Source: Ktedonobacteraceae bacterium (GTDB lineage: Bacteria > Chloroflexota > Ktedonobacteria > Ktedonobacterales > Ktedonobacteraceae). From it: a stretch of DNA of 25,167 nt. A program made the translations under genes and the position numbers. The notes under the pieces were generated by a model. The model ran no database searches and was not told where the DNA came from. It saw only the letters and a program-made list of their open reading frames with translations. The first letter of the stretch is position 1, and each line of letters opens with the position of its first letter. The DNA is taken from contig JADBKA010000051.1 of the NCBI GenBank assembly GCA_014896635.1, forward strand, positions 1-25,167, read 5' to 3'. Positions 14,539-19,069 of the stretch are shown one piece after another.

Positions 14539-16851
14539 ATGGCACGCAAATCCTTTCAAGACACCCCGACCGATCCTCGTATCTCCATTTTTGACTATAA
14601 TCTTGTTCAACAACTGGATGATGCCATTCTTGTTGGTCGATGGTTTGTTTTCTATAAGCCTTCGTGGCTGGAGCGTTCCGGCCTGGCTCAAACGCTGACA
14701 TCAGGCGGCATCGAGGAAGTGAAGGCGAAGCAGATCATTAATTTTCGCGGGAAAAAGTCGCTTCGACCGCCCGGCGCAAATATCGATCCCACACCGTTTC
14801 TGCGCCCGCAACTTGCTTCGCTCACCTGCGATAAGGCGCTTTACCGTGCCGACCGTGATACTGTGCGCCTGTTGATTGCCATGCCCCAACATGCCGGCAT
14901 CACCTGTAAGCTCCGGCTATTGCTGAACAGTAATCCCTACGCCGATTACAGTGTCACGCTCGATGAATATGGATTAGCTCTCTGGTCAATGCAGGGACTG
15001 CCGGAAGGCGAGTACGAGGCTCGCCTGGTATGGCAGGAGCAGCTCTCTTCAGAGACGACAACTCAGAGGGAATCGGATGTCTGCCGCTTTGAGGTGGCCG
15101 AATATCGCCTGGCTCCGCTCAATGCGGAACTGGTGGCTCAGACGCTCAATGGCAACCGGCTGTCGTACACACTGGCTGTCACGGCATTTGGTCAGCCCTA
15201 TAGCGGGCAGATCGAGGTCGAATTGCAGGAGCGCGGCAGGCGTATCGGCAAACGCCAGCGTCTCAGCGGTGACGACGAAGGCCGCTATAGTGGCACCGTC
15301 GAATTGAGTGGAGCCGGTCCCTACACGCTCAACGTTTTTGCTGGCGAGCGCACGGCAACCGTTGCGCTCAAGGGTTCTGAGCGAGAGCGACGAGAAACGC
15401 TCACGATCAGCGAACTGGGAGAAGTACAGGCGCTTAGCCTGCTGCCCCTGCCGGGGGCTGAGGAGTGCCGGGGCATGTATGTGAGCACTGGCGGGAGCAA
15501 CAACGCGCCGTTTCTGGTGCGGCGTGTCATTGGCGGTGAAGTGGAGATCACGCCGCGTGCTGGCATTGAGCAACTGCGTATCGTGATAGTTGATCCTGCG
15601 CGCGATAGTCACAGTGAAACGCTCTATGAGCAACTGGTATCTGGACAGGCGTTGCGGCTTCCTGTGCCTTCTCCATATGGTATCCTGCTGCTCGGAGCAT
15701 TTATTGATGGGGAAGCCTGGGAAGGCTGGTGTGCTGTCCTGCACCCATCAGAGCTGCAAGTCACCTGCGAGGCTCCACAGCAGGCCCGGCCCGGCTCATC
15801 CGTCACTGTAACAGTAAAAACGAATGTGCCAGATCGCGTAGTTCCGGTACAGCTCATCGTGAAGGATCAGCGGCTCATCGCGCCGAGTGACCCACAGGTC
15901 GAACTGGCCGCTGCGATGAAGAAGAATCTTGGCGAGTGGCGCGAGCAATCAGCCACCGGAACGGTGAAGCATCGCCTGGTGGATTATACTCAACATCTAT
16001 ATAGAGCTTACAGGCAGAGCGGGGGATTTGCGGGGATGGTAATAACGGCAGCTCCTCTACCACCGATGGCTTTCCCTGCTCCCCTTGCTCCCGGTCAGCC
16101 AGTGTTTGCTTCTGCTCAAGAATTTGCACCAATGGCGGCGCCTGGGTCTACTCTCAATTATGGAGCAGTTATGGAGCAGGAGCGCGGCGCGCCGGTAGCG
16201 ACAGCGCCTGCCGCTACAGCAACTCTTACGCGGGTACGGATGCAGTTCCCGGAGATCATCTACAACAACATTGTGAGAGTGCAGGGCGAGGCTCACATTG
16301 AGGTCAAGCTCGGCGACAGTATGACACGCTATAGCATCGAAGCTTTTGCACTTGATAGCGCGTCGCTCGACTGGCGGCGTGCTGAAACGTCGCTCGAAGC
16401 TGTGCAGCCGGTCTATGGCGAGCTGACCGTCTCGCCGTTCGCCATGCCCGGCGATCCGGTCATGGGGCGCCTGGACATTGGCGCGGCATCGGGGCAGGCT
16501 TATGTCGAAGTGCGGCTGGATGATGCGCCACTCCCCCTCTTTGATGAAAAAGGCGCTCCTCTGGCTACCGGCCAGCCGGTAGCGTCTGGCACTGTCGTGC
16601 GCTTTCCTGTGCGGCCCGGCGCGCTCACTGCTATCGTGCGCGATGCTGAGAGCGGCGAGAGCGATGTGAGCGAGCGCTACATCACCGAGCCGGGAAAGTT
16701 GCGCCATATTATGCGCCGCCTGCGCCTGCTCATCCCCGGCGACGAAGTGACTCTGGAACAGGAACACCTGCTGGAGATTCGCCCGCTGCCGGGCCTGGAG
16801 CGGCCTTTCCAGTTCTTTATTGAGGGGGCTGCTAAATATCCCTTTGGTTGA
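14539..16851 (+). CDS. Alpha-2-macroglobulin-like protein, N-terminal part up to in-frame TGA
   Basis: 770 residues to the TGA at 16849-16851; AGAAGGAGA precedes ATG 14539. It consists of serial beta-sandwich (macroglobulin) domains. Residues about 425-450 (VTVTVKTNVPDRVVPVQLIVKDQR) precede a Pro/Ala-rich flexible stretch at 500-562 that resembles a bait region. Residues 565-640 (RMQFPEIIYNN, then VQPVYGELTV) match the domain before the thioester domain. The last four residues, YPFG, are the beginning of the thioester motif YPYG-C-x-EQ. Codon 771 is TGA where the cysteine belongs, and the same frame continues into the C-terminal part. There is no signal peptide or lipobox, unlike typical bacterial A2M, which are exported lipoproteins that trap proteases. 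The product may be split, truncated or, by UGA decoding, 1195 residues long. Confidence 0.8.
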   Translation: MARKSFQDTPTDPRISIFDYNLVQQLDDAILVGRWFVFYKPSWLERSGLAQTLTSGGIEEVKAKQIINFRGKKSLRPPGANIDPTPFLRPQLASLTCDKALYRADRDTVRLLIAMPQHAGITCKLRLLLNSNPYADYSVTLDEYGLALWSMQGLPEGEYEARLVWQEQLSSETTTQRESDVCRFEVAEYRLAPLNAELVAQTLNGNRLSYTLAVTAFGQPYSGQIEVELQERGRRIGKRQRLSGDDEGRYSGTVELSGAGPYTLNVFAGERTATVALKGSERERRETLTISELGEVQALSLLPLPGAEECRGMYVSTGGSNNAPFLVRRVIGGEVEITPRAGIEQLRIVIVDPARDSHSETLYEQLVSGQALRLPVPSPYGILLLGAFIDGEAWEGWCAVLHPSELQVTCEAPQQARPGSSVTVTVKTNVPDRVVPVQLIVKDQRLIAPSDPQVELAAAMKKNLGEWREQSATGTVKHRLVDYTQHLYRAYRQSGGFAGMVITAAPLPPMAFPAPLAPGQPVFASAQEFAPMAAPGSTLNYGAVMEQERGAPVATAPAATATLTRVRMQFPEIIYNNIVRVQGEAHIEVKLGDSMTRYSIEAFALDSASLDWRRAETSLEAVQPVYGELTVSPFAMPGDPVMGRLDIGAASGQAYVEVRLDDAPLPLFDEKGAPLATGQPVASGTVVRFPVRPGALTAIVRDAESGESDVSERYITEPGKLRHIMRRLRLLIPGDEVTLEQEHLLEIRPLPGLERPFQFFIEGAAKYPFG

Positions 16852-16885
16852 ATACAGCAGACATCCGCTAAGGTCTTAGCGATGT
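16849..16885 (+). other. In-frame TGA at the thioester position plus SECIS-like hairpin
   Basis: TGA 16849-16851 separates YPFG from IQQTS in one frame. Twenty bases later is the loop GGTC (16872-16875) of a hairpin: lower stem ACAT (16861-16864) / ATGT (16882-16885), one bulged C (16865), upper stem CGCTAA (16866-16871) / TTAGCG (16876-16881). Bacterial SECIS elements are hairpins just after UGA with a conserved GU in the loop; the E. coli fdhF element, as I recall it, has loop AGGUCU and a one-base bulge in the stem. Here the bases at the loop also read AGGUCU. Against recoding: the next base is A, and UGAA is an efficient stop context. Confidence 0.55.
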
Positions 16886-18126
16886 ATACGGGCTATATTA
16901 CCAATCAGGAGCAGCCAGAACTGGCGCGCGACTATGAAGCGGCAATCCTCGTCTGGTATAAGCGGCTCAAGAGCATGTATCTGCCACAACGAGGCTTCTG
17001 CCTCTATCCCCCCGAAGAGGGTGGCGCCCGCGAGCCGGATACCTACTGTGCGCCTCTGGGCGTCCAGCACCTGCTGAATCTGCCGACCGGCGAGCGCTCA
17101 GGCATTCGGCAGCAGGCACTGCGCGATCTGCTTGACGATATTCATACAATGGTGAAGGATGCCGCTGCTTACTATAAAATTTCCTCTCCGCCGAAAAACA
17201 TCGAAGATTGCCATGCTGCTTACCAGGCGCTGGTTGACGACTCAACACCGGCGATGAAGCAGCGGGCGGCGGCTTTCGTGCGTTCACGTCTGAAGGATCA
17301 CAGTGGACAGGTTTATGTCGAAATCGCGCCGGACCAGCCATCCTATCGCCTCTGGGGCATGGCCGTCTCCACGCGCGAAGAAACCGCCTACGCTGCTGCT
17401 GCGCTCCTGGCAACGAAAGAGCCTGCCGATCTTCCTTTAGCCATTGCGGCGACCAACTACCTGACCGCCCAGTTGAACGAGGAAGGACGGTTGTACAGCA
17501 CCGTTGATACTGCCGCCTGCCTGGCACTGCTGCTTGAACTGCGCAACTCCGGTGTCGTTGTGAGTGGAGAGAAAGGGCGTGTCATGCTTAATGAGCAGGA
17601 GATGCCGCTTGCTGAGGCGCTAAACTATAGTGGCAAAGTCGAAAAGTTACGCTGCCTGGAAGGCGTCGTAGCGGCGCAGATGACGCAGGAAGTGATCGAG
17701 GATTGGCGTACCTTCCAGAGTAATCTGCCGGTTGAGGTGGCGCTCGAACGACGCGGACGGGTGCAGAAGCGTTTCAAAGTTGGGGATGATCTGGATCTGG
17801 TGATTCGTGTGCGGAAGTATGAGCCGGGGCTGATTGCGCATGTCTGTCTGCCTGATGCGCTGGCGCGCGTGGTGGGTGGCGCCCAGGTCAAACGGTTCAG
17901 CCTGGACTTTTGTGAGAAGAACGAGCTGCGCGTTCCGCTGGCCGCCGTTGGTCCGACCTTTTTAAGCAGTGGCGAGAGCGAAGGCATACTGAGCCGCTGG
18001 TTGAAGATAGGTCAGCAGCGTAATGCAGCGGAGCGCGTACAGCACTGGGCCGTCATTGCACGCAACATGTTTAAGGAAGAGCAGACGGGTAATCCCGGCT
18101 TGCTCGAAGTCGAAGTAGAGGGCTGA
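16882..18126 (+). CDS. Alpha-2-macroglobulin-like protein, C-terminal (thioester/complement-like) part
   Basis: The frame continues from the TGA at 16849 without a shift; 10 codons (IQQTSAKVLA) precede the ATG at 16882, and 414 residues follow. The first about 250 residues form helix-rich repeats as in the thioester (alpha/alpha toroid) domain: EAAILVWYKRLKSMYLPQRGFCLYP, ETAYAAAALLATKEP, and AIAATNYLTAQLNEEGRLYSTVDTAACLALLLEL. The remainder is beta-rich and matches the terminal receptor-like domain. If translated alone, its only start would be ATG 16882, with a weak AAGG eight bases upstream inside the hairpin, and the protein would lack the thioester motif. It is therefore best seen as the second part of one gene. 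The intact frame of 425 codons after the TGA argues against long-standing decay. Confidence 0.78.
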   Translation: MYTGYITNQEQPELARDYEAAILVWYKRLKSMYLPQRGFCLYPPEEGGAREPDTYCAPLGVQHLLNLPTGERSGIRQQALRDLLDDIHTMVKDAAAYYKISSPPKNIEDCHAAYQALVDDSTPAMKQRAAAFVRSRLKDHSGQVYVEIAPDQPSYRLWGMAVSTREETAYAAAALLATKEPADLPLAIAATNYLTAQLNEEGRLYSTVDTAACLALLLELRNSGVVVSGEKGRVMLNEQEMPLAEALNYSGKVEKLRCLEGVVAAQMTQEVIEDWRTFQSNLPVEVALERRGRVQKRFKVGDDLDLVIRVRKYEPGLIAHVCLPDALARVVGGAQVKRFSLDFCEKNELRVPLAAVGPTFLSSGESEGILSRWLKIGQQRNAAERVQHWAVIARNMFKEEQTGNPGLLEVEVEG

Positions 18127-18153: not shown

Positions 18154-18185
18154 CCCCGCGTTGCGGGGAGGCGTCCCCGCTTTTT
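18154..18185 (+). terminator. Intrinsic terminator of the alpha-2-macroglobulin-like gene
   Basis: GCGGGG (18163-18168), loop AGGCGT and CCCCGC (18175-18180) followed by TTTTT (18181-18185) make a good intrinsic terminator. A competing stem CCCCGC (18154-18159) / GCGGGG (18163-18168) uses the same left arm, so two folds exclude each other. Confidence 0.75.
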
Positions 18186-18205
18186 CCTCATTCCCTAAAA
18201 GGTGT

Positions 18206-19069
18206 GTTGAAAAAGCACTAGGAGCGCCGCTGGAAGAAGCCTGGGGAAGACCTGAGCCATTCGATGTGTGGTGGTATCCCAGACTTCAGGAGGGGGCATT
18301 CCCAATGATGACCTGGAGATGCAGCTCATCTGGCTCAAGGCGCTGGAGTAGGTTGGTCCCGGCCTCAAAGCGGCTAATCTGGCACTGTACTGGCTCACGC
18401 ATATCGGCTATAATTGGGATGAGTATGGTCTTTCCAGGACCAATCTGCGCCTGGGTTTATTGCCGCCTGTTTCCGGGGCATACAACAACTGGTTTAAACA
18501 TTGTATGGGCAGTCCGATCCGCTCGGAGATCTGGGCCTGTGTCGCGCCGGGGGTTCCTTCGCTTGCGGCGCGGTTCGCCTATGAAGATGCCATTTGCGAT
18601 CATGCAGGCAGCGAAGGGGTTTTTGGCTCATTGTTCAACGCGGCGGTGGAGTCGGCGGCGTTTGTCGTCGAGGAGCGAGACCAGTTACGCACTGGAGAAT
18701 GCACTGCCGCTGGGTGATCTGCTGGCAGGTGGCGGCGTCCTCTATGTGCAGACTTATCTCTGGTCGCCGGCAGCCTGCCAGGTCTGGATGGGCGTGGCGA
18801 CGACCTGTACGGTCAAACTCTAGCTCAATGGGGAGTTGCTCGCATCTGCCGGCGGGTATCGGCCACTGCGGCCCAACTATGGCGGCAAGGCGGAGACCGG
18901 CTTTGCCACCGGCTCGCTGCGCGAAGGCTGGAACGAGGTGCCGGTAAAGTTCGTGCGATCCGCCGGCGCACCTGCCTTTGAAGGGCATCTTTTGTGGAGC
19001 AGTGCTGACAAATTGCACAACGGGCTACCAGAGATTCGCTGGACACGCCTGCCCTGGGATGAAGAGTAG
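18206..19069 (+). pseudogene. Decayed ADP-ribosylglycohydrolase-like gene
   Basis: Recognisable protein text is spread over two frames. Frame one begins VEKALGAPLEEAWGRPEPF and runs to a run of five Gs at 18292-18296. There the matching text moves to another frame (GIPNDDLEMQLIWLKALE, YNWDEYGLSRTNLRLGLLPP, NNWFKHCMGSPIRSEIW, FAYEDAICDHAG, FNAAVESAAFVVEERD). After about 18690 it returns to the first frame (LPLGDLLAGGGVLYVQTYLW ... PEIRWTRLPWDEE). TAG stops interrupt at 18349-18351 and at 18821-18823, the latter probably once TGG. The N-terminus and a middle part are missing. The motifs resemble the ADP-ribosylglycohydrolase family of large Chloroflexota/actinobacterial proteins; the family call is moderate, the decay is clear. 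Confidence 0.7.

Follow-up and report, generated by a model that had tools for sequence, protein, structure and literature searches.

A selenocysteine candidate at the thioester site of an alpha-2-macroglobulin-like protein from Ktedonobacteria

The internal thioester of complement proteins and macroglobulins is textbook cysteine chemistry. The stretch of DNA analysed here, 25,167 nucleotides (nt) of contig JADBKA010000051.1 from a Ktedonobacteraceae bacterium and hereafter called the window, raises the question of what becomes of that chemistry when the cysteine codon is a stop codon: a gene for an alpha-2-macroglobulin (A2M)-like protein (14539..18126; this and the parts of the gene given below lie on the + strand) carries an in-frame TGA (16849..16851) on the codon of the thioester cysteine. 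Our answer is that this UGA very probably encodes selenocysteine (Sec), which would make the whole gene, read through the TGA, a selenoprotein candidate of 1195 residues and its product a member of a new selenoprotein family. If this is true, Sec would have entered a probable acyl-transfer role in a large family that repeatedly swaps Cys for Sec, and the family would offer natural Sec/Cys pairs for asking what selenium buys. The analysis also draws attention, within Ktedonobacteria, to an A2M-like protein that is apparently intracellular.

An interrupted thioester motif and its homologues

The gene consists of two open reading frames in one register, as the preliminary description of this DNA had stated: the first begins at ATG 14539 and runs for 770 codons (14539..16848), the second follows with 424 codons (16852..18123), and the TGA, at the position of candidate residue Sec771, is the sole interruption. 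In the structural model the N-terminal part comprises macroglobulin-type beta domains, and the C-terminal part the remainder of the helical thioester domain together with the C-terminal domains; counted from the first ATG 3' of the TGA (16882..16884), which serves gene callers as the start of the C-half and is a possible restart site, the latter has 414 codons. The residues flanking the site, YPFG-[TGA]-IQQTS, match the homologue motif Y-x-[F/Y/H]-G-C-[I/V]-[E/Q]-Q, and the Gln three residues past the TGA (Gln774, codon 16858..16860), the acyl-bond residue in A2M/C3 proteins, is invariant in a 47-row alignment. As remarked earlier, the window has Gln (IQQ) in place of the Glu of CxEQ. Among 141 Cys proteins, defined as those matching one fixed motif pattern, 140 have C-x-E-Q and a single one, P0007, has IQQ; since a Cys homologue shares it, the IQQ of the window need not mean decay.

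The model of the window protein (predicted local distance difference test, pLDDT, 83.2) has an A2M/C3-type fold, for which Foldseek and VIA-align give CD109, A2M, A2ML1, C5, C3 and TEP1 as the best structural matches, with TM-scores of up to 0.45, and in it, as in A2M, the thioester site lies where the helical domain begins. The window protein itself has no Pfam or NCBIfam match; the Pfam domain A2M passes its cut-off in homologue P0007, where the PF00207 match begins at residue 576, and TED does so in P0221, while the YPYGCLEQT of Salmonella A2M aligns, weakly (E 0.25), on the YPFGCIEQT of the family. Just before the PF00207-type domain lies a disordered, Ala/Pro-rich stretch (residues 492–568; 16012..16242; pLDDT below 50), which in the model is a candidate protease bait region. 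Two observations suggest an intracellular role: inspection by eye reveals no signal peptide at the N-terminus of the window protein, and some relatives carry a zinc ribbon there, over the cut-off in P0280 and just under it in P0256; precomputed annotation gives an N-terminal zinc ribbon (PF13240 or PF13248) in the stop-form halves P0249, P0256, P0259, P0270, P0271, P0274, P0278 and P0280.

Homologues were collected in protein searches that list the best 120 of 227 matches for residues 500–1100 of the read-through protein, the best 120 of 148 for the C-half and the best 120 of 149 for the N-half. The read-through query yields 120 listed homologues of 657–1257 residues, covering 84–100% of the queried region, and every one of them (120/120) has Cys at the position of the TGA, in agreement with the earlier placement of this codon. 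Such a search is biased towards Cys forms because gene callers end genes at TGA; the halves were then searched separately, with full-length proteins excluded by size. An N-half query of 600 residues lists 120 proteins, of which 93 terminate precisely in YP[F/Y/H]G, at the residue before the thioester Cys; these 93 are the window's own protein and 92 other clusters at 90% identity. Their terminal residues are YPFG in 41, YPYG in 35 and YPHG in 17; halves ending in YPFG or YPYG are 56–67% identical to the query over most of its length, and those ending in YPHG 52–55%, or 60–64% where only about half of the query is aligned. The C-half query gives the complementary picture: among 116 newly listed matches, 88 begin at a Met 11 codons past the site, equivalent to the one at 16882, the Cys motif is present in 18, and the other 10 have different starts. 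Across the two listings, 18 pairs of N- and C-halves agree in the size of their longest contig (47057, 34302, 1268871, 13067, 6281, 5828, 6596, 6975, 12911, 4927, 3725, 45397, 36738, 54521, 10219, 12052, 4143 and 5958 bases, the largest being 1,268,871), and one pair bears the neighbouring GenBank tags ACJ8CB_09130 and ACJ8CB_09135. From the N-half ends, the C-half starts and these pairs we conclude that, as far as protein sequences tell, genes of this A2M-like family commonly have a stop precisely at the thioester codon, and annotation seems to cut such genes in two, the 92 listed clusters besides the window's own being N-halves that end at this codon.

The named sources of the listed matches are Ktedonobacteraceae, Ktedonobacterales, Ktedonobacter or Ktedonosporobacter records, and the window protein shares 72% identity in its C-part with L001, a contig of a metagenome-assembled genome from Ktedonobacteraceae. 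The gene is patchily distributed, being present in four of 47 genomes of the class, with fragments in two more, and represented by well over 100 clusters in the protein collection; 400 genomes drawn from the phylum yielded the same four. One of the two fragments, in G004, is a piece of an A2M-like gene, and the other, in G005 (L125 5317-5750 = G005:C21:69316-69749), is a remnant in which both ends of the family profile adjoin and the middle is gone. Searches of plasmids and of phages for stop-form DNA gave no match, and viral contigs matched neither the C-half nor a first motif pattern; two viral contigs found with a second pattern (L114 and L115) were rejected as stop forms, with stops around the match and a best tblastn E of 3.3.

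How the stop and Cys forms are related was read from a tree built with FastTree from the N-parts of 88 stop and 114 Cys proteins, 202 in all; stop halves shorter than 690 residues were left out, as were Cys rows in which the part preceding the motif was too short. In this tree stop and Cys states are intermingled: at least 15 changes are needed, of which starred branches force 12, and Cys and stop forms occur as sister pairs at support 99 (P0007 with P0296, and P0002 with P0239). The window belongs to a starred group of six rows, of which two are stop forms and four are Cys forms. Interleaving of this extent is expected of Sec/Cys exchange rather than of one ancestral split, and such exchange is known in bacteria according to the available text of PMC1794560. 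The Cys form P0007 lies nested within stop forms, and its Cys is followed by IQQTSAKVLA, identical to the peptide coded by the region of the window that contains the hairpin described below, even as the two proteins belong to different clades; judging from this one protein sequence, we take P0007 to have changed recently from Sec to Cys and to have retained the peptide of the Sec form.

The downstream hairpin and the decoding machinery

A bulged hairpin that resembles a bacterial Sec insertion sequence (SECIS) lies inside the reading frame at 16861..16885 (ACAUC-C-GCUAA-GGUC-UUAGC-GAUGU, -9.6 kcal/mol). Its apical loop, GGUC (16872..16875), is flanked by A and U and starts 20 nt after the UGA. 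The preliminary description had noted the hairpin and judged its distance to be within bacterial spacing, and this holds: the accessible portion of PMC10778597 gives 16–37 nt after the UGA, that of PMC1088965 a G in a small apical loop, and the window hairpin agrees with both. Within the class, a comparison is offered by the loci of formate dehydrogenase-N (FDH-N), of which 28 of 30 carry the Sec motif; GGUC follows all 28 Sec codons that were read, in each case at +22 (18 nt after the UGA). A TGA is also present at L055, an FDH of a different type. Across the loci analysed, FDH loci included, both strands together offer 1,066,278 positions, and 423 of these have at +20 to +28 a five-pair hairpin (G-U allowed) with a GGUC loop. 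In the four Cys-form genes with readable DNA, whose codons are TGT, TGC, TGT and TGC, the hairpin is unformed (4/4; 0 to -6.3 kcal/mol). The window gave no Rfam match when gathering thresholds were applied. Those Cys forms that lie near stop forms showed a tendency to Val at the loop codon (p 0.014, uncorrected for kinship), but with 4 rows compared with 110 they were too few, and the observation was left unused.

The apparatus for reading such a codon is widespread in the class. In the same 47 genomes, among which the window's own is not included, curated cut-offs are passed by tRNA-Sec in 40, SelB in 41, SelA in 41 and SelD in 40, as compared with 3, 2, 1 and 2, respectively, of 14 control genomes, and ARAGORN assigns the anticodon TCA to all six tRNA-Sec loci tried. 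The machinery has evident clients: FDH-N alpha has one in-frame TGA in 33 of the 47 genomes, and selD has an in-frame TGA in 26 of 40 genes. As an observation on these clients, the selD Sec sites at loci L126-L145 precede hairpins whose loops differ from the GGUC of FDH. We infer Sec decoding in the organism of the window as well, and Sec at the thioester Cys, the central proposal of the preliminary description, gains support from the sel genes of the class, from the homologues with stop or Cys at this codon and from the interleaved tree.

Counter-evidence, rival explanations and the chemistry of the site

A number of points weigh against this reading. The folding energy of the hairpin is ordinary (z -1.21), with 26 of 200 shuffles folding equally well; its GGUC stands at +24, 2 nt farther from the UGA than in FDH and in another reading frame of the protein, and the GGUC loop was chosen as a criterion after the window site had been seen. 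At the Sec sites of selD in the class, GGUC at +20 to +28 was found in none of the 20 read (of 26 with TGA), four sites having it at +16 or +36; the loop is therefore not a class-wide requirement, and SelB of the class, to judge by these sequences, may accept several loops. The FastTree tree has some long branches, as the program warned, and the Sec machinery was read in relatives of the class rather than in the window's genome. The four genomes of the class with a full or contig-cut homologue all have Cys forms. In the comparison of homologues proposed in the preliminary description, the absence of the hairpin from four of four Cys forms and the stop exactly at the Cys codon in 92 other clusters speak for Sec; these 92 stop forms are known as protein sequences, in whose genes the stop would be TGA followed by a hairpin. 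To these we would add the AAGG considered with the split gene below, and the fact that a selenoester with Gln774 is something we infer, by analogy with A2M.

In the mechanism that we favour, UGA 16849..16851 would be decoded as Sec by tRNA-Sec and SelB, with the hairpin at 16861..16885 directing the decoding, and the product would be one A2M-like protein of about 1195 residues. A protease would cut the disordered stretch at residues 492–568 and thereby cause a change of shape, upon which a selenoester between Sec771 and Gln774 (a thioester in the Cys relatives) would acylate a nearby amine and the protease would be trapped. Protease trapping as in A2M is, by analogy, the most likely function. 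A selenoester should acylate faster than a thioester, at the cost of stability. Whether an intramolecular Sec771–Gln774 selenoester would indeed make this a superactivated intracellular A2M, acting as a fast protease trap or an amine tag, we regard as evenly balanced; if so, it would be the first natural selenoester warhead, and the family the first of selenoproteins to use Sec in acyl transfer, not redox.

The explanation that survives best beside it is a variant of Sec decoding, with which its chances overlap, namely a selenoprotein whose Sec serves redox chemistry and forms no selenoester with Gln774, which we consider a real possibility at somewhat below an even chance. Compared with a thioester, a selenoester should be the quicker to hydrolyse, and the window has Gln for the Glu of CxEQ. 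Bacterial selenoproteins, moreover, evolved mainly from redox-active Cys proteins, as the consulted part of PMC1794560 has it. The invariance of Gln774, the A2M-like location of the site where the helical domain begins, and the C-x-E-Q of 140 of the 141 motif-bearing Cys proteins argue against this variant.

Much less probable is a split gene, in which translation would stop at the TGA and restart at ATG 16882, giving two subunits of a thioester-less A2M of type II-like kind. That ATG lies 11 codons on, an AAGG eight bases 5' of it could serve the restart, the protein collection contains the halves as separate proteins, and type II A2Ms work without CxEQ (PMC5764988, in the part available). 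A split, however, fits poorly with at least 15 interleaved changes and one and the same stop position in each of the 93 listed halves that end there, with the 10 codons between stop and ATG, which in the window still encode the family motif including Gln774, and with the presence of Sec-decoding genes in the class. It is very improbable, too, that an unusual tRNA inserts Cys or some other standard residue at the UGA in place of Sec: tRNAs of this sort that read UGA exist in some bacteria, and the product would equal that of the Cys relatives, but the class has tRNA-Sec (TCA in six of six loci tried), SelA, SelB and SelD, an FDH-like hairpin follows the site, and UGA ends ordinary genes in the window (according to the preliminary description). 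We take it to be close to negligible that the gene is decaying and that its TGA is a nonsense mutation or an error of sequencing: a broken gene does lie directly downstream and the UGAA context favours termination, but 92 further clusters stop at this very codon, the halves are otherwise open over 1195 codons, and the C-part keeps its 72% identity to that of L001.

Genomic surroundings and comparison with known systems

The decayed gene pointed out earlier directly downstream is real and is separate from the A2M-like gene: it is a broken ADP-ribosylglycohydrolase gene with shifted frames (18161-18950), in which PF03747 matches the frame 18460-18714 (E 1.3e-8) and two other frames that were tried have no match. 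Elsewhere in the class, tandem Peptidase_S8 genes, sedolisin-like by eye and with lipoprotein-like N-termini by eye, lie divergently beside the A2M gene in G003 and G018 and beside the remnant in G005 (L122 10933-13648, L123 2632-5274 and L125 2452-5141); beside the remnant, only one of the two proteases has a Pfam match. Tandem proteases were not found beside the A2M gene in G030 and were not seen in the window. A partnership of protease and A2M is possible, and we have made no use of it for the mechanism.

Among bacterial macroglobulins, type I A2Ms (E. coli YfhM and Salmonella A2M; PDB 4ziq, 5a42 and 4u48) have the fold in common with the window protein along most of the chain, and a disordered, bait-like stretch precedes the A2M domain in the window protein as well. 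Sequence kinship is nevertheless at the limit of detection (E 0.25), the window protein is about 420–450 residues shorter, it lacks a signal or lipoprotein peptide evident by eye, and it has UGA for the Cys codon. As a neighbour, pbpC was not seen among the open reading frames of the window, with no search aimed at it. Given the UGA at the Cys and the Gln at the Glu of CxEQ, the sequence is that of an A2M-like protein, not of a standard type I A2M. Type II A2M (MagD of Pseudomonas aeruginosa) is likewise A2M-like without a thioester Cys codon, but the window protein keeps the Gln and the motif, with a candidate Sec codon in place of Cys. The apparent lack of a signal peptide suggests an intracellular action, which would be unlike the bacterial A2Ms described so far. 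Complement C3 and C5, TEP1, CD109 and human A2M, which are the best Foldseek and VIA-align matches of the model, differ in being animal proteins, secreted or membrane-bound, and in having a Cys thioester in most cases, C5 being without one.

On the side of selenium, the accessible text of the selenoproteome papers PMC13188914, PMC12013277, PMC1088965, PMC9312934 and PMC2398784 does not mention a macroglobulin, PMC8659212 yielded nothing relevant, and in open-access full text we found no selenocysteine or selenoester protein of macroglobulin or thioester kind. The likeness to known bacterial selenoproteins such as FDH-N alpha and SelD is that of a common genetic design, comprising an in-frame UGA, a downstream hairpin, the Sec machinery of the lineage, Cys homologues and Sec/Cys exchange. 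The difference is one of chemistry: known selenoprotein families are mostly redox enzymes, whereas the Sec of the window protein would replace a Cys that forms an acyl bond.

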